Origin: Sphaerotilus montanus
GTDB taxonomy: Bacteria > Pseudomonadota > Gammaproteobacteria > Burkholderiales > Burkholderiaceae_C
Length of the DNA: 64,000 nucleotides
Assembly (NCBI RefSeq): GCF_013410775.1
Contig: NZ_JACCFH010000001.1
Location: 248,001-312,000, forward strand
Direction: 5' to 3'
Shown in pieces: positions 36,667 to 62,472 of the stretch. Position numbers and translations under genes: made by a program. Position 1 is the first letter of the stretch; the number at the start of each line of letters is the position of its first letter. Below the pieces are notes generated by a model, which did no database searches, was not told the DNA's origin, and saw only the letters and a list, made by a program, of their open reading frames with translations.

Positions 36667-38205
36667 TCAGGCTGCGGCACTGGCGTCGGCCTCGGCCGCT
36701 GCGGTCTGCGCGGGCTCGAACAGCGTGCAGCGGTTGCGCCCCGAGCGCTTGGACAAGTAGAGCGCCTGGTCCGCCTGGTCGATGAGCTGCTCCAGCGAGA
36801 GCCTCGGCGAGCGCGTCACCGCCACCCCGAAGCTGGAGGTGATGCTGAGCCGGGGCTCGTAGTCGATGCCGTCGCCGGCCGTGTCCTGCACCAGCTTGCG
36901 CAGCCGCTCGGCGAAGACGGCCGCCTGCGCCTCGTCGCTGCCGGGCAGCATCACGCAGAACTCTTCCCCGCCATAGCGGCAGGCCAGTCCGGTCTCGGCA
37001 GCCGCCCCGTTGTAGATGACCGCCACGGCCTTGATCACCTCGTCGCCGATGGCATGGCCATAGCGGTCATTGAACGACTTGAAGTGGTCGATGTCGCACA
37101 TGATGACCGCCACCGGCTGCCCCAGCAGGTTGCACTGGTCCTTCTGGGTGCCGCCGGTTTCGAAGAACGCCCGGCGGTTGAGGCAGTCGGTCATGGGATC
37201 GCGGGTGGCCAGACGGAACAGCTCGGCGTTCTTCTTCTGGATCTCGTCGTTGGCGGACTGCAGCTGGCTGGTCGTCAGACGCAGGCTCTCGTTGCTGCGT
37301 TCGATGTGGGTCTGGTCGGAAATCACGACCAGACAGCCCACCGTCTGCTGCTTCTGCTCGATCGGACTGCAGCTCACCAGGGTCACCCGCAGTTCCTCCC
37401 CGAGGCGCAGCTTCATCGGCAGCCGGGAGCAAGGCGTATGGGTCTGCAACGCCAGGGTCCAGGGATAACCGACGCCCGGCTGCAGTTCCGCGCCATCGCG
37501 CAGCCAGCCGTGCTCTTCCAGCCGGCGGCCGATCTGGACACTGCGCTGACCGACCAGCACCCGGAAGGCCTCGTTGACCAGCACGACGCGGCCCTGCCCG
37601 TCCAGCATGATGACCGACTCGGACAGCGTGTTGTAGGCCTTGCTCACCCGCTCCGGCACCGCCGTGCTGGGATCGAGCTGGTGCAGCACCTTGCCCAGAT
37701 ACAGCCGCAGCAGCACCACCAGCCCCGCGAAGGTCAGCATCGGCCACAGCGCCTGGGGAATCAGCAGCATCTGCGGAAAGGACTCGGCGGCGATCGGCGC
37801 CCAGTGCAGCTCCAGCGCCCCCCATGGCTGCCCCTGCAGCATCACCGGCACACGGATGTGGGTGGATGTACTGCGGAAATCCGGCCGGACACGCGGTGGC
37901 GTGACCCCCGTCACCGCGACCGCCTCGCCAGCCGTGGAACGCAGCGCCATGCCGAGCAGCAGGCCCTCGTTGCGGCGCGCGCCATACAGCACCTGGTCCA
38001 CGTCCTTCGGCCCCAGACGCGTCGCGACCAGCGCGATCTGGTCGGCCAGCAGCTGGCTGACCGCCTGGCGCCGATCGATCTCCATGCGCACCGGGCTGGG
38101 CACCAGCCCGAAGGCATAGTCCAGCCCCATGAGACACAGCACCACGAGCGCGGCGATGCCCACGGCAATGCGGGTGATCGTGTCGGGTGGCCAGGGAAAT
38201 CGCAT
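36667..38205 (-). CDS. Membrane PAS-GGDEF diguanylate cyclase
   Basis: 512 residues: a membrane segment (about 12-32), a short extracytoplasmic sensor region (to about 145), a second segment (about 148-168), a PAS-like domain (about 190-300) and a C-terminal GGDEF domain with intact active site RYGGEEF. No RxxD inhibitory site is seen upstream of GGEEF, so product inhibition may be absent. It should make c-di-GMP. Its ATG lies 6 nt after the stop of the giant protein gene with only a weak ribosome site, which suggests translation coupled to the giant gene. Confidence 0.9.
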   Translation of the reverse strand: MRFPWPPDTITRIAVGIAALVVLCLMGLDYAFGLVPSPVRMEIDRRQAVSQLLADQIALVATRLGPKDVDQVLYGARRNEGLLLGMALRSTAGEAVAVTGVTPPRVRPDFRSTSTHIRVPVMLQGQPWGALELHWAPIAAESFPQMLLIPQALWPMLTFAGLVVLLRLYLGKVLHQLDPSTAVPERVSKAYNTLSESVIMLDGQGRVVLVNEAFRVLVGQRSVQIGRRLEEHGWLRDGAELQPGVGYPWTLALQTHTPCSRLPMKLRLGEELRVTLVSCSPIEQKQQTVGCLVVISDQTHIERSNESLRLTTSQLQSANDEIQKKNAELFRLATRDPMTDCLNRRAFFETGGTQKDQCNLLGQPVAVIMCDIDHFKSFNDRYGHAIGDEVIKAVAVIYNGAAAETGLACRYGGEEFCVMLPGSDEAQAAVFAERLRKLVQDTAGDGIDYEPRLSITSSFGVAVTRSPRLSLEQLIDQADQALYLSKRSGRNRCTLFEPAQTAAAEADASAAA

Positions 38206-38211
38206 GCAGGC

Positions 38212-41200
38212 TCAGGTCCGTTGGTCAAGGATGTCTTCCGCCAGCTCTGCCAGCGATCCCGGAATATCGGTATCCAGCCACTCGACTTCAGTCCCCTCCG
38301 GCTGCTTCGGGGCGTTCACGCTCAACACGGGCAAGGGATCGAACTGCCGCCAGGGCGGCGACACGGCGATCAGGCTGGCCACCAGTCCGGTGGCGCGCGT
38401 GGCCCAGAACACGAGACCGACCGACAGCGCCATGCCGCCGACCCGCACCGTGCTGCCGCTGTCCCAGCGCAAGTCCGGTCCATCGTCCGACTCGCTCTGC
38501 TGACGGGCCGATTCGGTCGTTCCCCGGGAACGCTCATCGGTGGGCGTCCACTGGAGCAACGCCGAACGTTCCTGCACGAAGCCGCTCAGATCGATGGGTG
38601 CGTCCAGCATCACCAGCAGTTCGCCGGGCGGCAGTCGGGCCATGTCCGGCGCCATGCCGGAGGGGAACCCCACGCTGCCCCGACCACTCCCTGTGCGCTC
38701 GCCCGGCACAACCAGACCGACACCCGGAACGGACACGGTGGTCGCCCGCACCAGAACCGGTCCACGCACCGATCCAGCGTCGGAGGCAACCGCCGTTGCG
38801 GAGGCGTCGCTGTCGCGGTCGGTCGTGGTCAACCGACCGGCACCCCGTGTCGCGAACACGCCGTTTTCACCCCCGGCGATCTCGGACGTGATCCGATCGA
38901 GTCGGTCGACAGCCCCGGTGCCAGCCAGCGGCTCCTGGAGACCACCGCCAGCGGTCGAAGCCAGTTCGAGTCCGCTGCCCGGCGAAGGGAGCGACTCGAA
39001 TCTCGGTGGCAATGCCTCCATGGAAGGCACCGGATCGGAAGACAGGTCCGGTTGCGGAGCCGACGCGGCCGGCTGCACCCGCACCTCCACCTGGCGTGGC
39101 CCGACCACCCAGTCGCCCTCCGACAAGGTCAGAGAGAAACCCGCGGTCGCCGTGCGGCCCGACTGCACGAACACGACCCGACCTGCCGTCACGTCCGCCT
39201 GCGTGAACCGGGTGATGGCGCTCCCAGGTGCGTCGACCCGCTCGAACACGCCTGAACGGACGTCGCTCACCGTATAGACCAGCCCGGCATCCGGGGTGTC
39301 CGGGTCGGTCGCCTGGAACATGCCGGCATCGAGCACCACCTGACCGCCCTGCGCCACCGCCAGCTGGCTGTTGACCAGCACCGGTGCCTCGTTGACGTTG
39401 GTGACCAGCAGCGTCAGCGCGCGGGTACCGACCAGCGTGCCGTCCGATACGCTCACGACCAGCTCGTAGGCGTTGTCGTGGTTGGCATCCTGTGGTGCCT
39501 CCTGGTCGGTCGTCAGCCTGAAGGTCAGCAGCCCGCTGGCCGGATCCAGTTCGAACAACGCGGCATCCGCGCCCCCGCTGATGCGGAACGTCAGTGCCTG
39601 CGTCGGCTGGTCGGCATCGGTCACGTCCAGAACGCCCGACCACGGCACCCCTTCCGGCACCGACACGGTCACTGCAGCCGCACCGCCGTCCGAGGTGAAC
39701 CTCGGCGTGTTGTCATTGGTGCCCGTGACCGCCACGGCGACGGCCTGGATCGCTGTGAGGCTGCCATCGCTGACCTGCAATGTCACGTCGTAGAGGTTGT
39801 CAGCGTTGGCATCGCTCGGTGCTTCATGGTCTGGCGCGGTTTGGAAGCTCAGCGCGCCCGTCGCCGCGTCGATCGTGAACCGGGCTGCGTCCGCGCCGCC
39901 GGTGATGCTGTAGGTGAGCGTCTGCGCGGGCAGGTCACCATCGGTCGCCGTCACCGTCATCACCGCGGTCGTGTTCTCGGCCACGCCAAAGGCGCTACCC
40001 GAGGTAATGGCTGGCGTGTTGTCGTTGACGGCAGTGACCGTCACTGCGATGGCCTGGGTCGCCGTGAGGCTGCTGTCGCTGACCTGCACCGTCACGTCGT
40101 AGCTGTTGTCGGCGTTGGCGTCACTCGGTGCTTCGTGGTCTGGCGCGGTTTGGAAGCTCAGCGCGCCCGTCGCCGCGTCGATCGTGAACCGGGCTGCGTC
40201 CGCGCCGCCGGTGATGCTGTAGGTGAGCGTCTGCGACGGCAGGTCACCATCGGTCGCCGTCACCGTTGTCACCGCGGTCGTGTTTTCGGCCACGCCACAG
40301 GCGCTACCCGAGGTGATGGCTGGCGTGTTGTCGTTGACGGCAGTGACCGTCACTGCGATGGCCTGGGTTGCTGTGAGGCTGCTGTCGCTGACCTGCACCG
40401 TCACGTCGTACACGTTGTCGGCGTTCGCGTCGCTCGGTGCTTCATGGTCCGGCGCAGCCTGGAAGCTCAGCACGCCGGTGGCCGCGTCGATCGTGAACCG
40501 GGCCGCGTCCGCGCCGCCGGTGATGCTGTAGGTGAGCGTCTGCGCGGGCAGGTCACCATCGGTCGCCGTCACCATCGTCACCGCGGTCGTGTTCTCGGCC
40601 ATGCTGAAGGCGCCACCCGAAGTGATGACTGGCGTGTTGTCGTTGGCATCCGTCACGGTCACCGCGATGGCCTGACTGGCGGTCAGGCTGCCGTCGCTGA
40701 CTTGCACCGTCACGTCGTAGACGTTGTCGGCGTTCGCGTCGCTCGGTACTTCGTGGTCTGCCGCGGTTTGGAAGCTCAGCGCGCCCGTCGCCGCGTCGAT
40801 CGTGAACCGGGCCGCATCCGCTCCACCGGTGATGCTGTACGCCAGCGTCTGTGCGGGCAGATCGGCGTCGCTCGCCATCACCGTCGTCACCGTGGTCGTG
40901 TTCTCCGCCACGCTGAATGCGCTACCCGAGGTGATGGCCGGCGTGTTGTCGTTGATCGCCGTGACCGTCACCGCGATCGCCTGCGAGGCGGTCAGGCTGC
41001 CGTCGCTGACCTGCACCGTCACGTCGTACACGTTGTCGGCGTTCGCGTCGCTCGGCACCTCGTGGTCCGGTGCCGTCAGGAAACTCAGCGCGCCGGTGGC
41101 AGCGTCGATCGTGAATCGAGAAGCGTCCGCGCCGCTCGTGATGCTGAAAGTCAGCGTCTGCGCTGGCAGATCGGCGTCGCTGGCTGTCACCGTCGTCACG

Positions 41201-44200
41201 GCCGTCGCGTTCTCGGCCATGTTGACAGCGCTGCCCGAGGTGATGGCCGGCGTGTTGTCGTTGACGCCCGTGACCGTCACCGCGATCGCCTGCGAAGCGG
41301 TCAGGCCTCCGTCGCTGACCTGCACCGTCACGTCGTACACGTTGTCGGCGTTCGCGTCGCTCGGTGCTTCGTGGTCCGGCGCAGCCTGGAAGCTCAGCGC
41401 ACCCGTGGCCGCGTCTATCGTGAACCGGGCCGCGTCCGCGCCGCCGGTGATGCTGTAGGTGAGCGTCTGCGCGGGCAGGTCACCATCGGTCGCCGTCACC
41501 GTTGTCACCGCGGTCGTGTTTTCGGCCACGCCAAAGGCGCTACCCGAGGTGATGGCTGGCGTGTTGTCGTTGACGGCAGTGACCGTCACTGCGATGGCCT
41601 GGGTCGCCGTGAGGCTGCTGTCGCTGACCTGCACCGTCACGTCGTAGACGTTGTCGGCGTTCGCATCGCTCGGTGCTTCGTGATCTGGCGCGGCGATGAA
41701 GCTCAGCGCGCCGGTAGCCGCGTCGATCGTGAACCGGGCGGCGTCCGCCCCACCGGTGATGCTGTACGCCAGCGTCTGTGCGGGCAGATCGGCGTCGCTC
41801 GCCATCACCGTCGTCACCGCCGTCGTGTTCTCCGCCACGCTAAATGCGCTACCCGAGGTGATGGCCGGCGTGTTGTCGTTGATCGCCGTGACCGTCACCG
41901 CGATCGCCTGCGAGGCGGTCAGGCTGCCGTCGCTGACCTGCACCGTCACGTCGTACACGTTGTCGGCGTTCGCGTCGCTCGGTGCTTCATGGTCCGGCGC
42001 AGCCTGGAAGCTCAGCGCACCCGTGGCCGCGTCTATCGTGAACCGGGCCGCGTCCGCGCCGCCGGTGATGCTGTAGGTGAGCGTCTGCGCGGGCAGGTCA
42101 CCATCGGTCGCCGTCACCGTTGTCACCGCGGTCGAGTTCTCGGCCACGCTAAAGGCGCTACCCGAGGTGATGGCTGGCGTGCTGTCGTTGACCGCCGTGA
42201 CCGTCACCGCGATCGCCTGCGAGGCGGTCAGGCTGCCGTCGCTGACCTGCACCGTCACGTCGTAGACGTTGTCGGCGTTGGCATCGCTCGGGGCTTCGTG
42301 GTCGGGCGCCACAGCAAACTGCAGCACGCCCGTGGCGCTGTCGATCGTGAACCGCGCGGCGTCCGCACCGCCCGTGATGCTGTAGCTCAGCGTCTGCACA
42401 GGCAGATCCACGTCGGTCGCCACCACCGTCGTCACTGCAGTCGTGTTCTCCGCCACGCTACGGACTGCGAGGGCACCGCCACCATCGCTGGTGATGCTCG
42501 GGGCATCGTTGGTGGCCGTGACCGACACGGTGCGGGCCACGGTGAGGCTGTCAGCGTAGGCATCGCGCACGGTGAACGTGACCGTCCGGGGCTGTGTGCT
42601 CGGGCTGTCGCTGGTGTTGTCGTAGGTGACGCTGCGCAGGGCCGTCTGGTAGTGCGCCAGACTGGCCGTGCCGCTCAACGTCAGGTTGCCGGCCGAGGCG
42701 TCCCAGGTGCCAGTGATGCCATTCTGGTTGACGAAGCCCAGCACGTCCTCGCCGCTGGCGTGGTGGGTGGTGATCTGCACCACGGCCATGCTCAGCGTGG
42801 CGCTGTCGGCGTCGTTCAGCGTCAGTCCGGGATCGACCACGGTGGCGCCGGCTCCTTCGACATGGCTGGCACTGCCGCCCGACACGCTGACGACCGGGGC
42901 CTGGGGCGCGGTGAACTCGATCGTCAGGGTGGGCCGCAGGCTGGCGTCGGCGTGTTCGGAGGAGGCGAAGCTCCAGGTGTCGGCGCTGCTGGACACCAGC
43001 GCCCAGCCGTGATTCGGGGCCGTCCCGTCCAGCCATGCCTGCACGGTGGCCGCCGACACGGCGATGTTGTTCCAGCCGAGCTGTCCGGCGCTGAACGAGG
43101 TCTCCACCGAGGCCGCCGCCTCGCTCGCGTCGGTCTGCACGCCATTGACCAGCGAGGCGTGGGTCGAGGATTCGCTCCAGCCCACGAGCATGCGGCGCAG
43201 CTCGATGAAGTCGGCAGCATCCCGCTCCAGCACATGGATCGACAGCGTCGCCGAGGAGATCGTGGCGCCGAGGGGCACCTGACCTGTGCCGCTGCCAAAG
43301 AGGTTGTCGAACCGGATCAGCCCCGTAGACAGCGGAGAACCATCGTCGCTGCGCACGAGGTTGGCGGTGCCGTAGGCGGATGTGGGCGTGCTGTCCTGGA
43401 CGTAGGTGTCCTGGGTGCCGGTGTAGCCCGCCTCCCCTTCGCGGAACCGGAGTCCCCCGACGATGACCTGGACCGAGCCGGCAGCCGTCGCCGGTCCGCC
43501 ACTGCCCGCATTGCCAAGGTCATCGAGCAGGACGCTCACGGTGGCTGCACCGACATGGCCGCCCGCCGGAGCAAAGACGAGCCCGTCCAGCGCCGCCTGC
43601 AGCGCCGCCACCGAGCCGCTGAACACGAGACTGGCATCGGCCGTGCCGTCGCCCGTGGAGAAGGTCAGCCCGGCCGTGCTGGCCAGGGTCAGCGTCCCGT
43701 GGGCAGTGCCGAGGGTGAGCTGCAGCGAGGCGCCCCCGGCGTCGACATCCGACAGCGTCAGGCGGTTGCCGTTGGCAGCAGACAGCGTGAGCGGTGTGCC
43801 GGCCGCGGTGGTCTGCAATCCGGGCAGGCTCAGCACGGGCGCATCGTTCACCGCCGAGACATCGAAGGTGAATGTCGCCGGTGTCGGATCGGTATCGATG
43901 CCGCCGTTGGCCACACCACCGGCGTCGATCACCGCGAAGGTGAAGCTGGCCAGACCGGCGCCACTGGCATCCGCCGGCGGCTGGTAGCGCAACTGGCCCA
44001 GATCCACCACGGCGACGGTCTGGCCCGCCGTCACCGGCACACCCGCCCACGTCAGCACCCCGGTGTTCGGCAGCGTCGTGAACTGCACCGCCTGCAAGGC
44101 GTGTCCCTCTGGGTCCGTCAGACCGAAATCGGCGGCCGAGAACACGTAGACGCTGTCTTCGGCCAAGGTCACCGTCCGGTCGATGCCGGCGGGAGCGTCG

Positions 44201-47200
44201 TTGGTCGGCGTGAGGGTGATGGTGGTGGCGCCCGTGGCGGTGCGCGCGCCGCCTGTGCCCTGGGCGCCCGTGTTGCCATCGCGGAAGGACCACGCGATCT
44301 GCACGCTCGCTGGCGGCGTGTCGCTGGTGTTCCAGTAGACGATGTGCTGCAGCAGCGCATTGACACGGGCATTCGTCGCGCCCGCACCGAACGTGACGAC
44401 CAGCTCGCCACCCGTGAAGGTGTAGCTGCCCACCAGCACGCCGTTGACCCGCACGTCCGCGCCGCTGGTGGTGACGACGGCACCGTCGAAGGCCAGCGCA
44501 TCCTCGGCGTTGGCGCCCCCTTGGCGGGACAGCGTGAGCGTGGCGCCGCTGAAGTTGTCGGCCGCGGTCAGCTCGGCGTCGGCCAAGGTCACGTCCGCGT
44601 CGAGCACGACCGCCGCGCCGCCCTCCGTGAAGACCGGCGCGCCATTCAAGCCACCGAACACCGGCGCGTCGTTCACCGCCACCACCGCCATGGTCACCAC
44701 TATCGGCGCGCTGGTGCCCCCACTGCCGTCACTGACCGTCAGCGACAGGGTGCGCGTGCTGGTGCTGGGCGCGTCGCTGGTGTCGCGGTAGGTGATGTTG
44801 CGCAGCAGCGCCTGCACTGCCGTGGTCGTGGCGTTGCCGTTGAAGTTCAGCACCAGCGGGGTGCTGCCGTTGCCGAAGCCGGTGTGGCTGCCGATGACGA
44901 CACCCTCGTACGTCACGTCGTTCCCCGACAGGCCGATCTGGCCGGCGCCCGTGCCCTGGTGGCGGATGCCCAACTCGTCGGTGGCGCTGCCGTTGGCGCT
45001 GACCTGGTAGGTCAGGTTGCCGCCGGTGAGCACCGGGGTGTCGCTGTCGGTGAACGTGGCGCTCGCATCGAACAGGACGCCGGCGTTTTCGGTGTAGCTG
45101 CTGCTGGAGCCGGACAGGGTGATCACTGGGGCCTGGTTCGAAACTGCCGCTGGCACGTTCATCGAGAACTCCGAGGTCGCGCCATAGCTGCTGGCCCCTG
45201 TCTTGACCGTGGCGGTGGCGCTGACGCGGTCCCCGGCGGCGGGCGCCACGCCGGTCAGCGTCACATCCAGCGCCGCGTGGCCCGCACCGTCCGTGGTGAC
45301 TTCGGTGTAGCCGAGGTAGACGGCACCTTCGCCGTACCCGGTCGGGTCTTCGCTGCCCAGCGGACTGGAGAAGAACTCGATGCGCAGCGTCGTGCCCGCC
45401 GTGGTGTTGACCTCGCCGCGCACCCGCACATCGGCCCCCTGCAGGTCGGCCGTGTAGAGCATCGGCGTGTTCTGCAGCGCGTTGGCGCCGGTGTCGGCGT
45501 CGCCGGCGTCATTGGCGGTGAGGCCGTCCATCCCGAGGTCGATGGCCAGCCCGGTGTTGCCCACGAAGGTGTTGCCGAGAATGGCCACCCCGGTGACATT
45601 GGATTCCACCATCACCCCGGCCTCGCCGGACCAGGACTGGTTGTAGGCGATCAGGTTGCCGGCACCGGTGACGGTGCCACCGATGGTGTGGTTGCTGGTG
45701 CCCATGCCCAGCCAGATGCCGCCCGCACCATTGCCCAGCGCGGCCGTGCCCGTCGCGTCGGTGCCGATGAAGTTGCCCTGCACCAGCGTGCCAGTGGTGC
45801 CTGCGCCAAAGATCTCGATGCCCTGGCGGTCGTTGCCGGAAATGATGTTGCGTTCTGCGCTGGCCGTGCCGCCGATGCGGTTGCCGCTGCCGCTGGCGAG
45901 GTGGATGCCGTCCTGCCAGTTGCCACGGTCCAGGGTGCCGGTGGCGTCCGTGCCGATGTAGTTGCCGATGATGGCGTTGTTCGACCCCACCACCGCCACC
46001 CCGCCGTTGCCATTGCCGGACAGGACGTTGCGCGCCAGCGCGGTCGTGCCGCCCACGGTATTGCCCGAGGAATAGACGAGGACTCCGCCGAGGACGTTGG
46101 CCGCCGCGGTGCTGCCATCGGCGCCGAGACCGACGAGGTTGCCTTCGATCGTGTTGCCGTCCGAGTCCGACTGGATCAGCAGACCGTATTGCCCGAAATC
46201 CACCACGCTGAACCCGCGCACCGTGCTGCCACCCGAACCCGCGGCGAGCACCAGGCCCGACGCATTCAGCCCGTTGCCGTCCAGCACGATCGCGGCACGG
46301 CTGGCGTTCGCGGCGAAGCTGTCGTCGGTGCTGGCGTCCAGCACGACTGCCTCCGTGACCGTCGGCAACGCCGAACTGACCGTGATCGTGTGGACCCCGG
46401 TGCCGGTGATGGCGAAGGTGATGCGGTCGGCGCTCGCGCCGTTGGCGGTGTTGTTGGCCGCCAGGATCGCCTCGCGCAGGCTGATGCCATCGCCGCCATC
46501 GTTGGCGACCAGGTTGGCGATGGACGTGACCGTCCCGTTGCCCGCGTCGCTGGTCGTGGTGACCACGATGGCGCCCACGTGCAGGTTCAGCGTGTCGCTG
46601 TCGGTCAGCGTGCCGCCGCTGCCGCTGTTGCCCAGGTCGCTCGTCTGCAGCGTCAGCGTCGCCAGGCCGCGGTATCCACTGGTCGGCGTGAAGGTGACGC
46701 CGCTGCCCAGCGCAGTGTTGATGGCGCTCACCGTGCCCGTGTAGGTGAAGCTGGCGGTGCCAGGGCTGCCTGCGGCGAGTGTCAGACCCGCGGTGGTGGC
46801 CAGGCTGAGCGTGCCCTGCGTGGCCGTCAGCGTGAACTGCACCGGGCCGCCGGCGGCGTCCACGTCGCTGATCTGCAGCGCGTTGCCGTTGGCAGTGGAG
46901 AAGGTCTTCGCGGTATCCAGCGCCGTGTACGCGTTGGCTGGCAGCGCATTCACCGGCGCGTCATTGGCACCATTGATGGTCACCGTCGTGCTGCCAGTGG
47001 CCTGCAGCGCCCCGCCGCTGCCCTGCGCCCCCGTGTTGCCGTCGTCGAAGCGCCAGTCGATCTGCACGCTCGCCGGCGGAGCGTCACTGGTGTTCCAGTA
47101 GACAATGTTCTGCATCAGCGTGTTCACGCGCGCCTGGGTCGCGTTGGCGCCGAAGCTGACCACCAGGTCGCCACCCGTGAAGCTGTACGTGCCCACCTGC

Positions 47201-50200: not shown

Positions 50201-53200
50201 CCCGCATTGACCACCGTGTTGCCCGCACCCGCCGCGGCGCCGCCCACCAGGCTGTGGTTGGCCCCGTTCTCCAGCAGGATGCCGATCTGCCCCGTGCCCC
50301 AGTTGGCGCTGCCGGCCAGATCGGTGCCGATGCGGTTGCCCTGGATCACGGTGCCGCTGGAGTCGCCCTTGACGAAGATGCCCCCCAGGACCGGCGAGGC
50401 GATCCAGTTGCCTTCGCTGGCGCCGGTGCCACCCACCAGGACGTTGTCGGCGCCGCCAAAGATGTGGATGCCATGTCCACCATTGCCGAGTGCGCCGGTG
50501 CCAGCCGCGTTCACCCCGATCCAGTTGCCGCGCACCACGTTGCCATCGCTGGTTTCACCGTCGATGTGCACGCCGGTGCCATCGTTGCCGCTGATGACGT
50601 TGTGCTGGACCGCGCTGCTGCCGCCGATCGTGTTGGCATTGGCGCCGTTCTGGATCAGCACCCCATCGACCACATTGCCCCGGTCCAGCAGGCCGGTCGC
50701 ATCGGTGCCGATGTAGTTGCCCGCCACGGTGTTGCCCGTGACCTCGGCATCTTCCAGCGCGACACCGTTGTAGTTGGCCGAGATGACGTTGCGCTCGCCC
50801 GCGTCGTTGCTGCCGTCGGCGTTGGTGCCGATCAGGTTGCCGGTGACGGCGCTGGCGGTGCCGCCGTTGTAGAGGTAGACCCCCGCGCCCGTGTTGCTCA
50901 CTGCCGTGGTGCCGTCTGCACCGAGCCCGATCAGGTTGCCCTGCACCCGGTTGTTGCTGACCCCGTTGGCCACCAGCACCCCGGTCTCGTTACCGGAGAT
51001 GACGTTGCCGGCGCCCGTCAGGCCGGAACCGACCTGGTTGCCGGAGGCGCCGTCCCAGAACGAGACCCCGCCCTGCGAATTGCCCAGGGCCACCAGACCG
51101 GTCACGTCGGTGCCGATGTAATTGCCCTGCACCACGTTGTTCGAGGTGCCGCTGCCGATCAGTTCCACGCCATACCAGTTGTTGCCGGAGATGACATTGC
51201 GCTCGGCCGTGTCGCTGGAGCCATCGGCATTGGTGCCGATGCGGTTGCCGCTGGCACCACCCACGATCACCACGCCACTGAGGCCGCTGGTATGCGCCGT
51301 GCCATTCAGGTCGGCGGTGCCGGTGCTGTCGGTGCCGATGTAGTTGCCGATCACGACGTTGCCGGTCGCCGCGACCAGGTTGATCATGATGCCCGTGCGG
51401 CCGTTGCCCGAAATCACGTTGCGCTGGCCAGCCTGGATGCCGCCTACCGTGTTGCCGGCCGATTCGATCAGGATGCCGTCAACGTCGTTGCGCAGCGCGG
51501 CATCCCCAGCGGCGGTGGTGCCGACATAGTTGCCCTGGATCTGGTTGCCGGTCGCCCCGCCACCGAGCCAGATGCCCATGCCACTGTTGCCTGCGATGAC
51601 GTTGCGGTCCGCTGCAGTCGAGCCGCCGATGACGTTGTTGTTCGCGTTCCAGACGTTCACGCCCTGCTGGTTGCCGCGGCCGGTCACGCCATCGGTGCCG
51701 ACGCCGATCCAGTTGCCCGCGACCGTGTTGCCGTTGCTGCCCGAGATGTCGATGGCATCCTGCGTGAAGCGCTGGAAGTCCAGTCCGCGCACGGTGCTGC
51801 CGCCCGAGCCGGTGTAGAGCCGCAGTCCGTCCTGCACCACGCCACCGCCGTCCAGCACGATGGCTGGCTGGTCGCCCCGCACCGCAAAGCTGTCGTCGCT
51901 GGTGCCATCGATCACCACCGCCTGGCTGATCGTGGGCAGCAGCGAGGCCAGCGCGATCGTGTGCGCATCGAAGCCGTTGATGCCGAAGACGATCTTGTCG
52001 GGCGTGGCACCGTTGGCGGTGTTGTTGGCCGCCGTGATCGCCTCGCGCAGCGAGATGCGCTGGTCGCCGCCGCGGCTGTTGCCCAGGGCAGTGATCGAGG
52101 TCGTGTTGCCGTCGATCGTGTCGGCGGTGGTGTCGACGACCACCACACCGCTCGCCGTCGCCACCACGTTCATCGCGAATTCGGACGTCGCGCCGTACAC
52201 GCCGCCGCCCAGGTCCACCGTGGCGGTGGCCGTCACGCGGTCGCCGTTGTTCACCCAGGCGTCGGTCAGCGTGATAGTGAAGGACACCGTGCCCAGCACA
52301 CCCGACGATACCGTCGTGTAGCCGAGGTAGCGTTCACCTTCACCGTAGCCGGTGCCATCCTCGCCACCCAGGTGGTTGGCGTAGAAATCGATGCGGTAGG
52401 TGCCGAGGATATTCGTCGTGAGCGAGCCGGCGATCGTCGTCCCGGCTGGCGATGACGCCGCGCTGGTGAGCACGGGGAAGTTCTGCAGGTTGTTGGCGCC
52501 GGTATCGCCATCACCGATGAAATCGTTCGCCGTGACGCCGTTGTCGGCGCCGAGGTCGAGGCCGGTTTCACTGTTGGCGGTGATCGCGTTGCCAAAGATG
52601 GCGTTGGACGTCCCGGACGCCGTGTTGACCAGCACACCGTCGCCCGTGTTGTTGGCGATCAGGTTGCCCGCTCCCGGCGCGGCGCCGCCGATGACCGAAT
52701 CGGTGGTGCTGCCCGTCATGCGAATGCCGTCCTGGCCATTGCCACGCGCGGCTCCCGCATTGGCATCGGTGCCGATGTAGTTACCGAGAACCTGCGCACC
52801 CGATGCCCCGGAGATGGCAATGCCGGCCAGCGTGTTTGAAGCGATCACGTTGCGACCGGCGGTCACGACCGCTCCGATGACCGAGTCCGTCGACTGGAGC
52901 AGGCTGACCCCCTCGCGGGCATTGCCCAGCGCAGCGGATCCGTTCGCCGACAGACCGATGTAGTTGCCCTGCACCGTGTTGCCGACCGAGGTCGATCCGT
53001 CGATGGCGATGCCAGCGAAGTTGTTGCCGGACACCACATTGCGGGCACCGGCGACCAATCCACCGATGGTGTTGCCACTGGCGCCGCTGTCGATCTGGAT
53101 GCCGTCCTCGCTGTTGCCGATGGCGACCAGACCCGAGATGGACGTGCCGACGTAGTTCCCCGACACGGTGTTGCCGTTCGCGCTCGCCCCGGAGATGTTG

Positions 53201-55035: not shown

Positions 55036-55048
55036 GGCGCGGACCGCC

Positions 55049-55972
55049 TCAGCGCGCGACCAGGGCGGGCATCGCGGCCGGGGTGGCAGGTCCGGCGGTC
55101 GGCGTGGCCGACACCCACTCGGGCTGGCAGCGCACGCCAGCCAGGACGCCGTGGTCCGGATTCGGCAGCGTCAGCCGTGCGCGGAAGGTGCGGCTGGCGG
55201 CATCGACGATCTTGTCCACCCGCTCGACCGTGGCAGTCTTGCGGGTGGCGCCGGGGTAATCGGGCTTGATCTGCACCGTGTCGCCAGCCTTCAGGCGGCC
55301 CAGGTCCGACAGCGGCAGCACCAGTTCGACCCGCAGCGGATCGAGCCGGGCGATGCGCAGGATCGGCTTGTCGTCGACCCGCTCGCCCGGATTCAGGAAC
55401 CGGTCGACGACCACGCCGTCGATGGTGGCGGCGAGTTCGCGCAGCGCGAACTGGGAGCGCGCGGTTTCGGTGTCGCTGGCGGCGGCGCGCTGCTGCTCGC
55501 GCACGGCGTCGACGCGGCGGTAGGCCACCTCGGCTTCCGAGCGGGCCTGCTCCACCGCCACCTCGGAGATGAAATTCTGACGGCGCAGGTCCTCGGCGCG
55601 CACCAGCTTGCTGCGCGCGAGTTCGGCCGCCGCGCGCGCGGCGCGCAGTTCGGCCTGGACCTCCGAGCGACTGCTCGCGGCACTCAGGTTGGCGCGCTCG
55701 ACCTCGCGCCGCAGCGTGGCCACGACCTCGCCACGGCGCACCGCGTCGCCGCGCTCGACCGCCACCGTCGCGATCACGCCCACCACCGGGCTGCCGATGT
55801 CCACCACCTGCGACGGCTCGATCAGGCACGCCAGCGGCGCTGCCTGTCCGGCGACCGCCAGCCACCCGCCTGCCAGCCACACCGCCACACGCAGGGCCGA
55901 CCGGCGCATCCGCGACCGAACGCGCCCATGACCGTGACCGAGATCCACCACTGCACACTCCAAGCTCGTCAT
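55049..55972 (-). CDS. HlyD-family periplasmic adaptor-like protein
   Basis: 307 residues. A signal-like segment (MRRSALRVAVWLAGGWLAVAG, from residue 22) suggests that translation may really start at 55909; the ATG at 55972 overlaps the SecA-like stop (ATGA). The mature part has a split lipoyl motif (GSPVVGVIATVAVERGDAVRRGEVVATL and TIDGVVVDRFLNPGERV) around an Ala/Glu/Arg-rich helical hairpin, then a beta-barrel. This is the membrane-fusion-protein fold. It sits 13 nt before the giant gene and probably serves its export. Confidence 0.85.
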   Translation of the reverse strand: MTSLECAVVDLGHGHGRVRSRMRRSALRVAVWLAGGWLAVAGQAAPLACLIEPSQVVDIGSPVVGVIATVAVERGDAVRRGEVVATLRREVERANLSAASSRSEVQAELRAARAAAELARSKLVRAEDLRRQNFISEVAVEQARSEAEVAYRRVDAVREQQRAAASDTETARSQFALRELAATIDGVVVDRFLNPGERVDDKPILRIARLDPLRVELVLPLSDLGRLKAGDTVQIKPDYPGATRKTATVERVDKIVDAASRTFRARLTLPNPDHGVLAGVRCQPEWVSATPTAGPATPAAMPALVAR

Positions 55973-57906
55973 TCTTCCCACCCGCTGTACGCCAGCCGCC
56001 CGGCACCGGCACGGTCCTGGCGCAGCAAGGCGCGCCGCTCGCGCGTCTGGGCCCACTCGTCGAGCAGCATCGCCAGCCGCCAGGCGGCCCCCGTCCAGCG
56101 CGAGGCGACCGGACGCTGCACCAGCGTAGCGACCAGCCAACCCGGCAGCCGCTGGAACAGCAAGCCTTCTCCCGCGCACAACTGGGTTTCGGCAGATCCG
56201 GGATCACCTTGACGGGCAGATCGGCCGACGAGCTGGCGCCACTGGCGCGAAGCGAGCGCATCCGCACAGACCATGGCATGCAGACCGCCCGCCGCCCGCA
56301 CCTCGGCGCTCAGCCGGATGTCGGTGCCGCGGCCGGCCATCTGGGTCGACACCGTGATGCGCCCGGGCTGGCCGGCGCGGGCGACCACCTCGTTTTCCAG
56401 CCGGCTCTGCACGGCGTTGAGCACCATCGGCCGCAGCCCGCGGGCCCGCAGCCGCAGCGCGAGCTGCTCGGAATCCGCGACCGACGCGGTGCCGATCAGC
56501 ACCGGGCGCCCCAGCGCGACCATGGCCGCCGTGCGATCGACGACCGCCTGCCAGCGCGCCTCGGCGTCGCGGTGGACCTGCACGCCCAGGTCCTGCCGCC
56601 GCGACGGATGGTGGCGGGGCATGCGCAGGACCGGCGTGCCGTAGGTGAGCGCCATCTCGGGGGCCACCTCGGCCAGCGTGCCGCTCATGCCGCCGATCTG
56701 GTGGTAGCGGCTGAACAGGCGCTGGTAGGTGAGCTGGGCCAGGGTCTGCTGGGCCGCCGGCATCGGCAGCGCCTCCTTCAGCGCGAGCAGCTGGTGCAGG
56801 CCGCGCGACCACTGCCGCTCCGGTGCGGCCCGCCCGGTGATCGGGTCGATGAAGACGATGGCCTCGTTCTGGACCGCGTAGTCCCGGTCGCGCTGCAGCG
56901 CATGCAGCACGGTCAGCGCCCGCAGCACCCAGTCCTCGCGCCAGCGCAGGTCAGACCACGGCCGCTGCGCCGCCCAGGACTGCGCGGCGAGCCAGTCCCG
57001 GCCGGCGCGGGTCAGCCGCACGCTGGCCGCACCACTGCCGGTGGCGGGCACGACCACGGCATGCCGCGCAGTGTCGACCGCCCGCGCCCGGTCAAGCAGC
57101 GCGCGCAGGTCGTCTTCGGACAAGGTCTGTGCGCCAAGGCCGGACAGGATCAGCGGCACACGCGCCTCGTCGCACAGCACGCTGTCGGCCTCGTCGATCA
57201 GCGCCAGGCAGAGTCCGCGCAGCAGCGGGCCGCGGTCGGGGTCGGCCGCGTCCGACCAGGCGAGCTGTCCGCCGGCCCGCCCGTGTGCGACCCGGTCGCG
57301 CAGGTGGTCGAACGCCACTTCGCGCGCAGCGGCGTAGGTCACCTCGGCACCATAGGCCGCGCGGCGCTGCGCCGGTGTGGAGGCCGCCGTCACGCAGCCC
57401 ACGCGCAGGCCGAGCGCGGCGTAGAGCGGCCCCAGCTCGGCAGCGTCGCGCTCGGCCAGGTAGTCGTTGGCCGTGAGCACATGGGCGGGCACGCCAGCCA
57501 GTCCGGCGCAGGCCGCGGCCAGGAACATCGCCACGGTCTTGCCCTCGCCCGTGGCCATCTCGACCAGACAGCCCTGCAACATCGTCCAGGCCGCCAGGTA
57601 CTGGGACTCGTGCGGCACGAAGCCGAGGTGCTGCTGTACCAGACCGGCCAGCCGGAGGAAGACGCGGGCGCAGAGCCTGGGCGTGTAGCCCTCGCTGCGC
57701 AGGTGGTAGAGCGTGCGCGGCCAGGCGGCCTCGTCGGGTGCGGGGCGTTGCAAGGCGGCCAGAAAGTCGGCGCGCCCGCGGCGGACCCGCCACGCGGTGC
57801 GCACGGCCAGCGCGAGGGGCCGGGGTGCGGTCCGCTGCGGATAGGCCCCCCAGATCGGTCCCGGACGCACCAGCGCCATGGCCGAAGCCGAAGCGGTGCC
57901 GGCCAT
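55969..57906 (-). CDS. SecA-like ATPase, short accessory form
   Basis: 645 residues against ~900 for housekeeping SecA. SecA motor motifs are intact: Walker A ATGEGKT (118-124), TANDYLAERDAAELG, LIDEADSVLCDEARVPLI (DEAD at 238-241), IGGMSGTLAE, QMAGRGTDIRL (GRGTD at 525-529) and GRSARQGDPGS (561-571). The C-terminal helical scaffold/wing is mostly missing and there is no zinc tail. Start at 57906 with GGAGG 8 nt upstream, 1 nt after the M50 stop. Its place among HlyD-like genes suggests a dedicated motor for the giant protein; it could instead act as a helicase-like regulator. Confidence 0.88.
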   Translation of the reverse strand: MAGTASASAMALVRPGPIWGAYPQRTAPRPLALAVRTAWRVRRGRADFLAALQRPAPDEAAWPRTLYHLRSEGYTPRLCARVFLRLAGLVQQHLGFVPHESQYLAAWTMLQGCLVEMATGEGKTVAMFLAAACAGLAGVPAHVLTANDYLAERDAAELGPLYAALGLRVGCVTAASTPAQRRAAYGAEVTYAAAREVAFDHLRDRVAHGRAGGQLAWSDAADPDRGPLLRGLCLALIDEADSVLCDEARVPLILSGLGAQTLSEDDLRALLDRARAVDTARHAVVVPATGSGAASVRLTRAGRDWLAAQSWAAQRPWSDLRWREDWVLRALTVLHALQRDRDYAVQNEAIVFIDPITGRAAPERQWSRGLHQLLALKEALPMPAAQQTLAQLTYQRLFSRYHQIGGMSGTLAEVAPEMALTYGTPVLRMPRHHPSRRQDLGVQVHRDAEARWQAVVDRTAAMVALGRPVLIGTASVADSEQLALRLRARGLRPMVLNAVQSRLENEVVARAGQPGRITVSTQMAGRGTDIRLSAEVRAAGGLHAMVCADALASRQWRQLVGRSARQGDPGSAETQLCAGEGLLFQRLPGWLVATLVQRPVASRWTGAAWRLAMLLDEWAQTRERRALLRQDRAGAGRLAYSGWEE

Positions 57907-57907
57907 T

Positions 57908-60112
57908 TCAGCGGCCTCCGGGCACGTCGGTGGCGTCGCCGAGGTGGCGCAGCGTGAGCTGCTGCAGGCGGCGCAGCAGCCGCGCACCCAGCGGTTGCGC
58001 GCCATGGTCAAAGCGCACCAGCAGCCGCGCGCCCAGCCGCTGCACCGCCAGATCCGGCACCTGGACATCGATGACCGCCACCGGCTGCAGCGTGCGCAGG
58101 CCGTCCGCGTCGGCCGGATCGGTCTCGATGCGCCCGCCCGCGTTCACGCCCAGCGCCGCGGCGGGCAGCACCGAGCCGGTCTCCGGCACCACGCCGTCCC
58201 AGCGCCCCGCGTGCACCTCGCCCACCGCCTCCGGCCGCAGGACCGACACCGCGCGCACCCCGGACAGCAGCCAGGCAATGTCCTCGTCCGGCACCACCGT
58301 GCGTGCGACCAGCCGGTCATCCGCCAGCACATGACCGAGCACCTCGCCGCGCCGGACATGGCGGCCTAGCAGGGTCTGCGGCTCGATCCAGCTCACGCGG
58401 CCGGCCCGGGTGCTGCGCATCGCCATCTGCGCGATGCGCGCCGCGAGTTCGTTTTCCCGCGCCTGCAGGGCAGTGGCTTCGGCTTCGGCGCGCTGGGCCG
58501 CCGAGGCGTCGCGCACCTGCAGCCGGTTGACCTGCACTTCCAGCTCCAGCCGGCGGGACCGCAGGTGGGCGAGTTCGATCGGCTGCTCGTCGTTGCCCAG
58601 CGTCAGCAAGGGGGTGTCCGGCTGGACCTGCTGCTCTCCCGGCGTCTCGACCGCGAGCACGAACCCGTCGGCCGGAGCGCGCACCAGCGCCTCCTCCGGC
58701 ATCCAGGCCTGCGCCTGCGCGACCGTGGCCTGCGGCAGCGGCAACCACAGCACGGCCGCCGCCAGCAGCGCCATGCCACCCAGGCTGATCGCCGTGGCGT
58801 GCAGTCGCCGCCCGTGCAGCGACGGCGACTTCGCGAGCCAGCGCAGACCCGCCACCGCCGGCTGCACGACCTGCAGCCACAGCACGATGGCGCCCACCAG
58901 CAGCGCCAGCGTGGCCGCCGTGTGCGCCAGCCACAGGCAGGCCGACACGGCCACCACCATCCCGAACAGCCACGCCGCCGGGGCATACACGAGCGTCACG
59001 CAGCGCTGCAGCCAGGACTGCGCCGGCAGCGGCGCACCGGGCGCGGCCCCCAACAGGTGCTGGAGCCGGTCGAGCCACCAGCGACGGCTGCGCTGCGCCA
59101 GATTGGGCAGGTCCAGCGCGTCGGTGAGCACGTGGTAGCCGTCCATGCGGACCAGCGGATTCGCATTGGCCAGCAAGGTCGACACGCCGCCCACCAGCGC
59201 CACCGCCAGCGCCAGATCGCGCACCAGCCCCGGCTGCACCGCCGCCCAGACCAGCACGCCGATCGCCGCCAGCACGCACTCGACCAGCACGCCCGCCGCG
59301 CTGATCAGCATGCGCTGGCTGCGCACCGCCAGCCCGGTCGCGGCCGAGGCGTCGACGTAGGGCGCCGGCACCAGATAGAGAAAGCCGATGCCGACGTGGT
59401 GCACGTCCGCGCCGCAGTGGCGCACCGCCAGCGCATGGCCGAGTTCGTGCAGCGCCTTGATGAAGGGATAGACCGCCCAGCTCAGCGCCAGAAAGACCGG
59501 GCTGGACAGGCGCTCGCGCACATCGGCCTGCAGCGCCGGCCACTGCAGCGCCACCTGCATCAGCCCGAGACCGACCAGCAGCACGGCCGCCAGCTGCGCC
59601 AGCGGATGCGACAGCGCGTGGGCCAGCGGATCGAGCCGGGTCAGCCAGCGGGTCGGGTCTCCCAGCGGCACGCGCCAGGACAGGGGATTGAGCGAGGCCC
59701 GGCGGCGGCGGCGGTCCACCTGCAACTCGCCGCGCATCAGCGCCTGCAGGTCCGGCAGGCGGTCGCACTGCAGCAGCCCGGCGCCATCGAGTGTCGCCAG
59801 CCACTCCAGCACCTCGTGCTGGGTCGGCGGCTGCGGTACATGGGTGCTCAGCCAGGTCCAGATCTCGCCGATCGTGCGCCGGCCGTCGAACCGGCCGACG
59901 AAGGACCAGCCGGCCTCGTCGAGCAGGTGGTGGCGGCCGGTGAGCAGGTCGGCGAGCACGTGGCGCACGACGCCATCGGCGCTGCGGTGGCGCACGCGCA
60001 CGGTCGGACGCAGCCGCGGCACGATGTTCGCCACCCGGTACCAGAGCGGGCTGTCGAGCGGAACCGGGTCGACCGCCTGCCGGCCCGCAGCCAGGGTCAG
60101 GTCCGGCGTCAT
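57908..60112 (-). CDS. PqqD-like / M50 zinc metalloprotease / HlyD-like fusion protein
   Basis: 734 residues. The N-terminal ~120 (LLDEAGWSFVGRFDGRRTIGEI.., LDGAGLLQCD) resemble the PqqD fold that binds peptide substrates. A polytopic membrane part carries the site-2-protease motifs HELGH (222-226) and NPLVRMDGYHVL (318-329, Asp324), so it should be an intramembrane zinc protease of the YydH-like peptide metalloprotease group. The C-terminal half (from about 510) is a periplasmic HlyD-like hairpin and barrel (VRAPADGFVLAVETPGEQQ). It overlaps the upstream gene by 4 nt. Role inferred: processing and handing over the giant protein. Confidence 0.87.
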   Translation of the reverse strand: MTPDLTLAAGRQAVDPVPLDSPLWYRVANIVPRLRPTVRVRHRSADGVVRHVLADLLTGRHHLLDEAGWSFVGRFDGRRTIGEIWTWLSTHVPQPPTQHEVLEWLATLDGAGLLQCDRLPDLQALMRGELQVDRRRRRASLNPLSWRVPLGDPTRWLTRLDPLAHALSHPLAQLAAVLLVGLGLMQVALQWPALQADVRERLSSPVFLALSWAVYPFIKALHELGHALAVRHCGADVHHVGIGFLYLVPAPYVDASAATGLAVRSQRMLISAAGVLVECVLAAIGVLVWAAVQPGLVRDLALAVALVGGVSTLLANANPLVRMDGYHVLTDALDLPNLAQRSRRWWLDRLQHLLGAAPGAPLPAQSWLQRCVTLVYAPAAWLFGMVVAVSACLWLAHTAATLALLVGAIVLWLQVVQPAVAGLRWLAKSPSLHGRRLHATAISLGGMALLAAAVLWLPLPQATVAQAQAWMPEEALVRAPADGFVLAVETPGEQQVQPDTPLLTLGNDEQPIELAHLRSRRLELEVQVNRLQVRDASAAQRAEAEATALQARENELAARIAQMAMRSTRAGRVSWIEPQTLLGRHVRRGEVLGHVLADDRLVARTVVPDEDIAWLLSGVRAVSVLRPEAVGEVHAGRWDGVVPETGSVLPAAALGVNAGGRIETDPADADGLRTLQPVAVIDVQVPDLAVQRLGARLLVRFDHGAQPLGARLLRRLQQLTLRHLGDATDVPGGR

Positions 60113-61599
60113 CCGAGCAGGGTCCACCAGCCCATGCGCAGCCAGTCGAAGAGGCGCCCGAACAGGTCGGCCACCAGGGGATGGCGGCCGGTGTCGAGGC
60201 GGGTCACGCCCTCGAAACCGGGGCGCAGCGTGGCCTCGGCCGAGACCAGCGCACCCTCCACCTCGAAGCCGTTGCGCCCTTCGCGCACCCGGGCCACCGG
60301 CGTGATGCGGGTCACGGTCATCGGCAGCGCCTGGCCCGGACGGGCCGCCACGCGCAGGGCGCCGATCGTGCCGACCTGCACGCCGGCAATGTCGCGCTCG
60401 TCCACCCACAGCACCAGCCGGAAGCCGTCGACCGGCGCCACCGTCATCATCACCTCGCCGCGCTTGACCGGCGCGCCGATCGAGCGGCTCAGGTCCCCCG
60501 ACACCACGACGCCGGTCAGTGGCGCCAGCACCCGACCACGCTCCAGGTCGCGCCGGGCCAGGTCCGCACGGGCACGCGCCTCGTCGACCTTGGCCATCTG
60601 GACCACGATCTGCGCCTGGTCGTGGCGGGCCAGCGCTTCGCTGACGGCGCTTTCCGACTGGGCCAGCGTGGCCTCGGCGGCCCGCAGTTCGCTGGACGCC
60701 TGTTCGCCGTCGAAGTCGATCAGCGACTGGCCAGCCTGGATCTGCGCCCCGGGGCGCGCGTAGACCACCGAGATGAAGCCGTCGCGCGGCGCCACCAGCT
60801 GCCGTTCGTGCAGGCCCTGCACCCGCGTCGGCGCCACCACCTCGCGGTGCACCGGCAGCAGGCCGATCACCAGCGTGGCACCGAAGGCCACCGGCCAGAC
60901 GTGGCGGCGCAGCGGCGCCAGCCAGCCCGGCCAGGCGAGCAGCGACGCCGGTCCGCGGGTCGCGGCACGGGTCAGGTACAGGCGCAGCAAGGGCGTGAAG
61001 TAGGTGGCGGCCTGCTCCAGGCGCAGGATCTCCTCGGTGCGGAACGGTGCGCCAAGATCACGCTGCAGCGTCATCGCGCCCAGCACCACGCCGTCGCCCC
61101 CCAGCGGCACGGTGCAGACCGCGCAGGCGCCCATCGACCGGCTGAGCTGCACATGGGCCAGCCCCGCCTGCATCGGGCCATGGCGGCGGGCGGGGTGCGT
61201 CAGCGTGCAGGCACTGGCCGCGGCCTCCTGCATCGCGGCGTGGAGATCGCGCACCAGTTCGGTCGCATCGGAGAGCCGGGGCAGGTCCGACACGGCCATC
61301 ACCTCCAGATCCGCGCGGGTCTGGCGGCGCAAGCCCAGCGCCACGCGGTCGCAGCGCAGGCTCGCCGCCAGATGCAGCACCAGCGCGCGCAACGCGTCAG
61401 CGTCACGCGGTGCCTGCAGCAGCACGCCGACCGCCTCCATCAGCCACTCGGCGGCCGGCACCGGCCGGCTCGGCCCCGGCGCACCAGCCCTGGACAGGTC
61501 CCGGATCGCGGCACGCAGTTGCGCATCCGCCTGCGCAGGCGGACTGGCGGGTGCGGCCACGTCGCGGGCTGGGGTGCGGGGAACGGAAGAGGTGCTCAC
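60109..61599 (-). CDS. GAF-domain / HlyD-family fusion protein
   Basis: 496 residues. An Ala/Pro-rich start is followed by a GAF-like domain (about 50-205; CDRVALGLRRQ, GAMTLQRD), one membrane segment (about 233-250) and a HlyD-type adaptor part (VQGLHERQLVAPRDGFISVV, YARPGAQIQAGQSLIDFD, a short hairpin of ~70 residues, then LAPLTGVVVSGDLSRSIG and a barrel). A cytoplasmic ligand sensor is thus joined directly to a periplasmic export adaptor. First gene of the six-gene operon. Confidence 0.88.
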   Translation of the reverse strand: MSTSSVPRTPARDVAAPASPPAQADAQLRAAIRDLSRAGAPGPSRPVPAAEWLMEAVGVLLQAPRDADALRALVLHLAASLRCDRVALGLRRQTRADLEVMAVSDLPRLSDATELVRDLHAAMQEAAASACTLTHPARRHGPMQAGLAHVQLSRSMGACAVCTVPLGGDGVVLGAMTLQRDLGAPFRTEEILRLEQAATYFTPLLRLYLTRAATRGPASLLAWPGWLAPLRRHVWPVAFGATLVIGLLPVHREVVAPTRVQGLHERQLVAPRDGFISVVYARPGAQIQAGQSLIDFDGEQASSELRAAEATLAQSESAVSEALARHDQAQIVVQMAKVDEARARADLARRDLERGRVLAPLTGVVVSGDLSRSIGAPVKRGEVMMTVAPVDGFRLVLWVDERDIAGVQVGTIGALRVAARPGQALPMTVTRITPVARVREGRNGFEVEGALVSAEATLRPGFEGVTRLDTGRHPLVADLFGRLFDWLRMGWWTLLG

Positions 61600-61708: not shown

Positions 61709-62416
61709 TCAGGCGCCCAGCGCGTCCGCCAGGGCGAGCAGATCGTCCAGATGGAGATGCCGGCCGGGCGGTGCGACATCGTCGGCCGGACTGGCGGGGC
61801 CGTGGTGGAGCGCTGCCTCTGGACGCCGGATCCACGCCGTGTGCAGTCCCGCCTGGCGGGCGCCGACGACGTCGAGCCGCCAGTCGTCGCCCACGTGCAT
61901 CACCTGCCCGACCGTGCACTGCAACTGCGCGCACGCCACCGCGAAGATGCGCGGCGCCGGCTTGGCCACGCCGCAGCCACGCGCGCTCACGGCCCCGGTG
62001 AAGTAGGCCGACAGGCCCGTCGCCGCCAGTTCGGCATTGCCGTTGGACAGCGCCAGCAGCGGAAAGCGCGCGGCCAGCCGCTCCAGCGCCGGCCGGACAT
62101 CGGCGTACCACTGCACCTGCTGGCGCTCGGCGAAGAACACGTCGAAGGCCGGCTCGGCCAGCGCCGGGTCATCGCCGACCGAGGCCAGCGCCTCGCGCAG
62201 CGTGATCAGGCGCAGCGCGGTCAGGTCGTGGGCCAGTTCGGGGTGGCGGCGCGCGACCTCGCCGCGCAGGCGCTGCAGCGTCGGCACATCAAAGGCCGCA
62301 GCGGTGGCCGGCGCGTGGGTACGCAGCCAGTCCTGCAGCACGGCTTCGGCGCGCAGCAGCGTGGGCAGGACGGGCCAGAGGGTGTCGTCCAGATCGAGGG
62401 TGAGGGCAGCAATCAT
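61709..62416 (-). CDS. HAD-family hydrolase
   Basis: 235 residues, cytoplasmic, probable phosphatase. The four HAD motifs are present: DLDDTLWP (I), ALSNGN (II), GVAKPAPRIF with Lys (III) and HVGDDWRLDVVGARQAG (IV). A helical cap lies between I and II. The start MIAALTLDL was chosen over a longer in-frame one. Substrate not predictable. Same strand as the giant-protein operon but 109 bp away, so probably separate. Confidence 0.88.
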   Translation of the reverse strand: MIAALTLDLDDTLWPVLPTLLRAEAVLQDWLRTHAPATAAAFDVPTLQRLRGEVARRHPELAHDLTALRLITLREALASVGDDPALAEPAFDVFFAERQQVQWYADVRPALERLAARFPLLALSNGNAELAATGLSAYFTGAVSARGCGVAKPAPRIFAVACAQLQCTVGQVMHVGDDWRLDVVGARQAGLHTAWIRRPEAALHHGPASPADDVAPPGRHLHLDDLLALADALGA

Positions 62417-62472
62417 CCGCGCAGTGTCCCCGAAGCACGGGAATTTGCTGGCTCGGCGAGAATGCACCCGCC

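Follow-up and report, generated by a model that had tools for sequence, protein, structure and literature searches.

A stretch of 64,000 nucleotides from the genome of Sphaerotilus montanus (contig NZ_JACCFH010000001.1, positions 248,001 to 312,000; hereafter the window, in whose numbering features are placed) carries six genes, all on the minus strand, in the order GAF-HlyD, M50-HlyD, SecA-like, HlyD, giant, and PAS-GGDEF. This operon is fairly likely to encode one substrate together with its own exporter, a TolC-type machine that lacks an ATP-binding cassette (ABC) transporter and exports giant proteins under the guidance of a leader. The proposed substrate is a protein of 5607 residues (38212..55035) and the proposed leader is its LEPR-8K tag, LEARILYSAD (residues 12-21; 54973..55002), which matches the NF012209 model at 18.4 bits, above cut-off. 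LEPR-tagged giants and the module of exporter genes travel together across genomes, and the residue pattern of the tag matches the subtype of the exporter, which is the strongest new result. The LEPR-tagged giant is very probably the substrate of the module. Both the parts and the locus are known; what is new is the case for the substrate and the recognition signal.

The co-occurrence search proposed in a preliminary description of this DNA was run with the same kind of queries in two samples, a class sample of 274 genomes and a phylum sample of 398, and it found LEPR giants almost only in company with the module. The samples share at least four positive genomes, Planctomycetota lie outside them, and the counts ignore phylogeny. 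In the class sample, an M50-HlyD match was found in 37 of 274 genomes at E 1e-20, and by score these fall into two groups, 21 H-type genomes and 16 lower-scoring (L-type) ones. LEPR-8K matched in 35 genomes at E 0.05, and the 19 retained at E 1e-3 comprise 15 with an H-type module, two with the lower type and two without a module; one of 14 named control genomes had a match. For the phylum sample, scoring covered the two best candidates of each genome, so that exporter counts and the labels H, L or both are lower bounds. There, M50-HlyD matched in 93 of 398 genomes (89 retained at 250 bits or more) and LEPR-8K in 84 (67 retained with a frame of at least 700 residues). The module was present in 64 of these 67 genomes, with three having LEPR only. 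Counted per genus, the module occurs in 37/37 LEPR genera and LEPR is missing in 9 of 46 module genera. Two findings weaken the association: no LEPR frame of at least 700 residues turned up in 25 of the 89 genomes with the module, and one complete genome (G213; genomes and loci of the survey carry G and L handles) encodes an LEPR giant of 7373 residues (G213:C57:21725) and no module. That giant is either exported by other means or is no substrate. The other LEPR-only genomes are highly fragmented (G076), incomplete (G450 and G472) or reach just 17 bits (G295), and a repeat search for an M50 match in all five found none.

The tag lies near the N-terminus, a median of 21 residues after the start (the start being chosen by rule, within 8-60 residues), and by eye it frequently follows basic residues. 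It exists in two versions, one LEPRxLLSAD-like and the other LEPRxxFDGA- or LDAA-like. Read with a pattern that admitted S, A and D at the scored place, S or A follows LEPRxxx in 51/51 tags of H-type exporters (3 of 54 loci gave no pattern match), D stands there in 10/10 tags of L-type exporters, and the other tags of genomes with both exporter types have S in 7/7. A reading free of the pattern, made near L-type exporters at the place given by NF012209, found D in 19/19; one of these tags (G563) opens a frame of 316 residues about 7 kb from the exporter, and the rest lie within 9 kb. The 20th stretch read in this way, on a contig of G402 without an exporter match, also has D. Five genomes hold both exporter types (G563, G367, G414, G402 and G300), and in all of them D is found near the L exporter. 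S-type tags are present in G563, G367 and G414, in G367 at 2.1 kb from the H exporter; the H match of G300 contains an internal stop. Host phylogeny is no explanation for tags that differ within a single genome. Two points count against taking the match for recognition of the tag by the exporter: in G402, which has both exporter types, two of four tags were read and both have D, and joint inheritance of an exporter and its neighboring giant, as a cassette, could give a match between tag and exporter without binding.

The operon is not a chance arrangement, because two further complete sets are present in the same genome and the gene order is kept elsewhere. The additional sets, found in searches with the SecA-like and M50-HlyD proteins, bring the total to three. 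Copy B (C1:2325616-2344114) has a giant of 3154 residues and a histidine kinase as its sixth gene, and copy C (C1:3328124-3338803) has an LEPR protein of 969 residues and a GGDEF protein. The three copies can be aligned in their four machine proteins and in the sensor region at the N-terminus of the sixth protein. Their giants align at both ends and account for the only three LEPR-8K matches above cut-off in the genome. Near copy C (G000 C1:3344176-3357992) there is also an open reading frame (ORF) of 1778 residues with a run of repeat-rich ORFs.

Neighborhoods in relatives were counted in named loci, the best 80 of 588 confirmed loci, with those having enough flank as denominators. The closest are in Sphaerotilus and Leptothrix (60-61% identity), which are sheath-forming filaments. 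GAF-HlyD lies upstream of M50-HlyD in 75/75 loci, and downstream are the SecA-like gene in 67/71 and HlyD in 49/57. An LEPR start follows downstream in 16/52 loci by profile and additionally, by eye, in L140 and L172; in other loci the end of a giant lies directly upstream of GAF-HlyD, with giant N-termini beyond the stretch covered. In gene maps of such upstream-giant loci (L166, L180, L183, L205 and L209), more small genes recur by the module, as judged by eye. An ORF of at least 1700 residues was found within 4 kb of the module in 33/39 named loci with long flanks, the exceptions being L159, L162, L166, L169, L179 and L200. The corresponding control gave 8/48 positions in the S. montanus genome, all eight in one locus, which counters the idea that a giant neighbor is ordinary. 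A threshold of 1000 residues did not discriminate, as 14/26 control positions had such an ORF.

The candidate reader of the tag is the M50-HlyD protein (734 residues; 57908..60112), whose predicted model has a pLDDT (predicted local distance difference test) of 90.2 and gives structure matches. Its N-terminal region (about residues 18-116; 59765..60061) is predicted to adopt the fold of the RRE (the recognition element of ribosomally synthesized and post-translationally modified peptides, or RiPPs) and in a structure search resembles domains solved with bound leader peptides. A PqqD-like/RRE domain was found for the H-type family, and prediction places the domain on the cytosolic side. The M50 site is intact. 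HExxH (residues 222-226; 59435..59449) is present in 37/38 aligned rows, the remaining row being a gap, and H222, E223, H226 and the partner D324 are invariant across 63 rows. An adaptor domain of the HlyD/MacA type (residues 460-712; 57977..58735) completes the protein. Several results speak against these assignments. The Pfam PqqD model was absent in the 10 L-type members scanned, the fold search matched the RRE stretch to GdmN, which is not an RRE, as well as to RREs, and NF041824 scored 112-166 bits in 11 proteins, below its 300-bit cut-off. The fold search barely probed the M50 part, and the lack of an M50 match among the 50 listed carries no weight. On balance, the RRE domain quite probably reads the LEPR tag, and there is an even chance that the M50 site cleaves the leader.

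The SecA-like ATPase (645 residues; 55969..57906) lacks the C-terminal part of SecA. On the 783-residue SecA chain 3jv2 (from B. subtilis), the alignment of its family profile covers residues 12-608, and the part without a counterpart (beyond 608) presumably comprises the helical wing, the two-helix finger and the C-tail. SecA_SW has no match in the protein of the operon. Walker A and B are kept in 20/20 rows and other SecA motifs are slightly changed. The preliminary description had made this protein part of the set, which holds in most loci (67/71) but not universally. The gene is missing after M50-HlyD in 4/71 named loci, was not found genome-wide in G206 and G190 (93% complete), and is absent from 7/7 L-type genomes searched; SecA-less H-types occur at more than one position of the tree. 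All of this counts against a general SecA-driven mechanism, and another motor must serve at SecA-less loci. H-type modules without the gene after M50-HlyD are L056, L060, L069, L144, L168, L174 and L188, and in G081 it is encoded away from the module. One lower-scoring locus (L077 of G060) is an in-between form with OEP, HlyD, GAF-HlyD and SecA-like genes in a row. It is the only one of 16 lower-scoring class loci with a SecA-like match, and its existence means that the L/H division is not a clean SecA division, a further complication. The SecA-like protein was dropped as an obligatory motor in view of its absence from L-type genomes, G206 and G190. It goes with most H-types and is not indispensable to the kind; the case that it pushes the chain is evenly balanced.

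The existence of SecA-less modules also speaks for a more conventional route, in which ordinary SecA/SecYEG takes the giant across the inner membrane and the module later trims it and hands it to TolC, with the SecA-like protein as a helper. A SecA of canonical length was found in 14/14 genomes searched, in keeping with such a route, but most LEPR giants are without the hydrophobic core of a signal peptide. The best 15-residue hydropathy of 51 H-type tags has a median of 1.06 and a maximum of 1.70, against a median of 1.91 and a minimum of 1.49 for 15 HlyD and OEP proteins, with overlapping ranges. Together with the predicted cytosolic location of the RRE domain, this makes the SecYEG route unlikely. 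The conserved Walker motifs (20/20 rows) agree with another proposal, published in part by Kamneva, Poudel and Ward (PMC4452313), that the SecA-like protein replaces the ABC ATPase and M50 is only a pore; the LEPR match would then reflect a shared neighborhood or cassette inheritance, and giants and exporters are indeed frequently adjacent. A mere pore would not be expected to keep its M50 site in all rows that cover it, however, the SecA-like protein is dispensable, and tag and exporter subtype match, so that this account appears quite improbable.

The remaining genes encode a GAF-HlyD protein (496 residues; 60109..61599) with a GAF domain, a single hydrophobic segment (230-248) and an HlyD adaptor, an HlyD-family adaptor (307 residues; 55049..55972), and a sensor (36667..38205) with two hydrophobic segments, PAS and GGDEF (which reads GGEEF). 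The junctions between the six genes, described earlier as -4, +1, -4, +13 and +6 nt, were exact to the base on re-check. Pfam and NCBIfam matches comprise GAF, HlyD (in three proteins), Peptidase_M50, SecA_DEAD, DUF4347, cadherin repeats and GGDEF; dTDP-isomerase, GMC and DOMON matches within the repeats of the giant were judged spurious. Behind its tag the giant contains DUF4347 (residues 159-328; 54052..54561; Pfam E 4.7e-51), a beta-helix, cadherin repeats and a C-terminal motif. Besides the window, 41 ORFs of the loci covered gave DUF4347. In many LEPR giants, whether they go with H-type or L-type exporters, it comes after the tag; copy C has none. H65 and C112 (alignment numbering) are invariant in 36 rows. 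Five copies scanned against peptidase C80 gave one match, under cut-off (E 0.0046), and matches to PDB were weak. DUF4347 is perhaps a self-processing cysteine peptidase of clan CD. Upstream of the operon (window 61709-63570), inspection by eye gives a HAD-like gene and hemH, and neighbors of these types also flank the module of Leptothrix sp. C29 (L140).

At their C-termini the three giants of S. montanus have a hydrophobic stretch and, behind it, W..DPLPVL (38317..38466 in the window, with DPLPVL at its end), and the DPLPVL motif occurs again in G052, G190, L152, L158, L172, L173 and L188. In a sample of 20 giant ends it was seen only in L121 and L134, which tells against a general role and led to its rejection as a universal feature; six of the other ends are cut by a contig end or were not reached. 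A sensor gene at the same locus is present in the three S. montanus copies, G052, G190, L158, L172 and L188 (the L152 and L173 stretches stop before the next gene), and sensors without a readable giant end are found in L053/L148 (one genome), L054 and L163. Retention of the giant by the C-terminal segment is a tentative suggestion, one we consider somewhat doubtful. Since motif and sensor occur in some loci only, retention and sensing would be limited to the subtype in the window. The coordination with cyclic diguanylate (c-di-GMP) put forward earlier needs correcting: the sensor is conserved and its output varies, being GGDEF in two of the S. montanus copies and a histidine kinase in the third.

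With GAF and sensor/GGDEF partners, and with M50 proteases being frequent in signaling, the module might instead be a device for regulated intramembrane proteolysis, sensing the giant or releasing it, while something else exports it. Modules beside LEPR giants without a sensor in the stretch covered (e.g., L202) do not fit such a device, and three HlyD adaptors and TolC-family neighbors indicate export, making it highly improbable. There is no OEP (TolC) match within the three operons, with OEP matches elsewhere in the genome, and nine neighboring genes of relatives that looked TolC-like by eye all match OEP (9/9). The earlier statement that the usual ABC and TolC partners are lacking is correct for the operon itself and less so for the kind, as TolC-family genes adjoin several relatives.

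As to the dedicated route envisaged in the preliminary description, its export part is supported by four observations: the genes adjoin, the genome has three parallel copies, co-occurrence is near-exclusive, and tags match exporter subtypes. The intact M50 site and the RRE domain are in line with processing, and anchoring is no more than hinted at by the conserved C-terminal hydrophobic motif. In leader-guided export, whose steps beyond co-occurrence, tag matching and fold we infer, the cytosolic RRE of M50-HlyD would bind the LEPR tag in the way that leader peptides are bound by enzymes of RiPP pathways, and the intramembrane M50 site would trim the leader. The SecA-like ATPase, which without the C-terminal part of SecA would not be an ordinary SecYEG motor, would push the chain, still unfolded, into a passage at the complex of M50-HlyD, GAF-HlyD and HlyD, and the HlyD parts would dock to a channel of the TolC family whose gene lies elsewhere. 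For the window's subtype, the hydrophobic DPLPVL segment could hold the giant in the envelope, and the sensor of the last gene, with GGDEF or kinase output, could report export or occupancy. If this is true, giant bacterial proteins are also steered by the kind of leader reading familiar from peptide antibiotics, and a TolC conduit can be served by a motor of the SecA type. The LEPR-8K tag, found in very large bacterial proteins, would gain a function, and the S/A versus D code in a tag of about ten residues makes specificity testable.

Type I secretion of RTX (repeats in toxin) adhesins of the LapA type shares HlyD adaptors, a giant cadherin-rich protein, a nearby c-di-GMP enzyme and probably a TolC-family channel with the system described here. 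HlyD-type adaptors are present in the operon, and OEP lies beside the modules of nine relatives and, in S. montanus, only away from the operons. The operon differs in having no ABC transporter among its six genes (the search for one covered these genes only), an N-terminal tag where type I substrates carry an uncleaved C-terminal secretion signal, and a proposed retention that is C-terminal rather than N-terminal. The PAS-GGDEF protein scores far under the LapD cut-off, and no further protease gene, such as one for LapG, is among the six. BapP of Pseudoalteromonas (PMC12153261) was set aside as a parallel, the neighbors of BapP described there being ABC-type. Accessory SecA2 systems also have an additional ATPase of the SecA family next to a large surface protein, but here the C-terminal part of SecA is missing, the context is HlyD, M50 and TolC, and the SecA2 family models of NCBIfam give 247-326 bits, under all cut-offs (725-1100). 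MpaP of the daptides (NF041824) likewise joins an RRE to an M50-type peptidase and serves there in leader removal (as described in PMC10036551). The H-type family has the RRE domain, the M50 HExxH and the D of the second motif; it differs from MpaP in its fusion to HlyD, its link to giants instead of short peptides and its NF041824 score below cut-off.

The closest relative is the secondary SecA_DEAD locus of Kamneva, Poudel and Ward (2015; PMC4452313), so that the earlier view that no named secretion type has this set needs qualifying: the four-gene module was already published, without a name or substrate in the text available. It was described as an ABC-less relative of type I secretion, with SecA_DEAD as the ATPase and M50 as the pore proposed in place of an ABC transporter, and its biological role was called unknown. 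The main text contains none of the terms "LEPR", "cadherin", "adhesin" and "GGDEF", the text available identifies neither a substrate nor an N-terminal tag and mentions no RRE domain and no sensor encoded by a sixth gene, and a search of open-licence PMC papers, without supplements, returned no listing naming a substrate. That locus, of which Methylobacterium extorquens AM1 is given there as a carrier, comprises the same genes (SecA_DEAD without SecA_SW, M50-HlyD, GAF-HlyD, HlyD and sometimes OEP), and the window has SecA_DEAD without the wing-scaffold next to M50-HlyD, GAF-HlyD and HlyD. It is conceivable, at slightly less than an even prospect, that the system is a distinct secretion type, in which a RiPP-style leader (LEPR) is read by an RRE within an intramembrane protease-adaptor, a SecA-derived or other motor stands in for the ABC transporter, each of the two exporter subtypes recognizes its own tag code (S/A or D), and a dedicated sensor watches C-terminally anchored giants. 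A substrate and a recognition signal are offered here for the locus reported in 2015.
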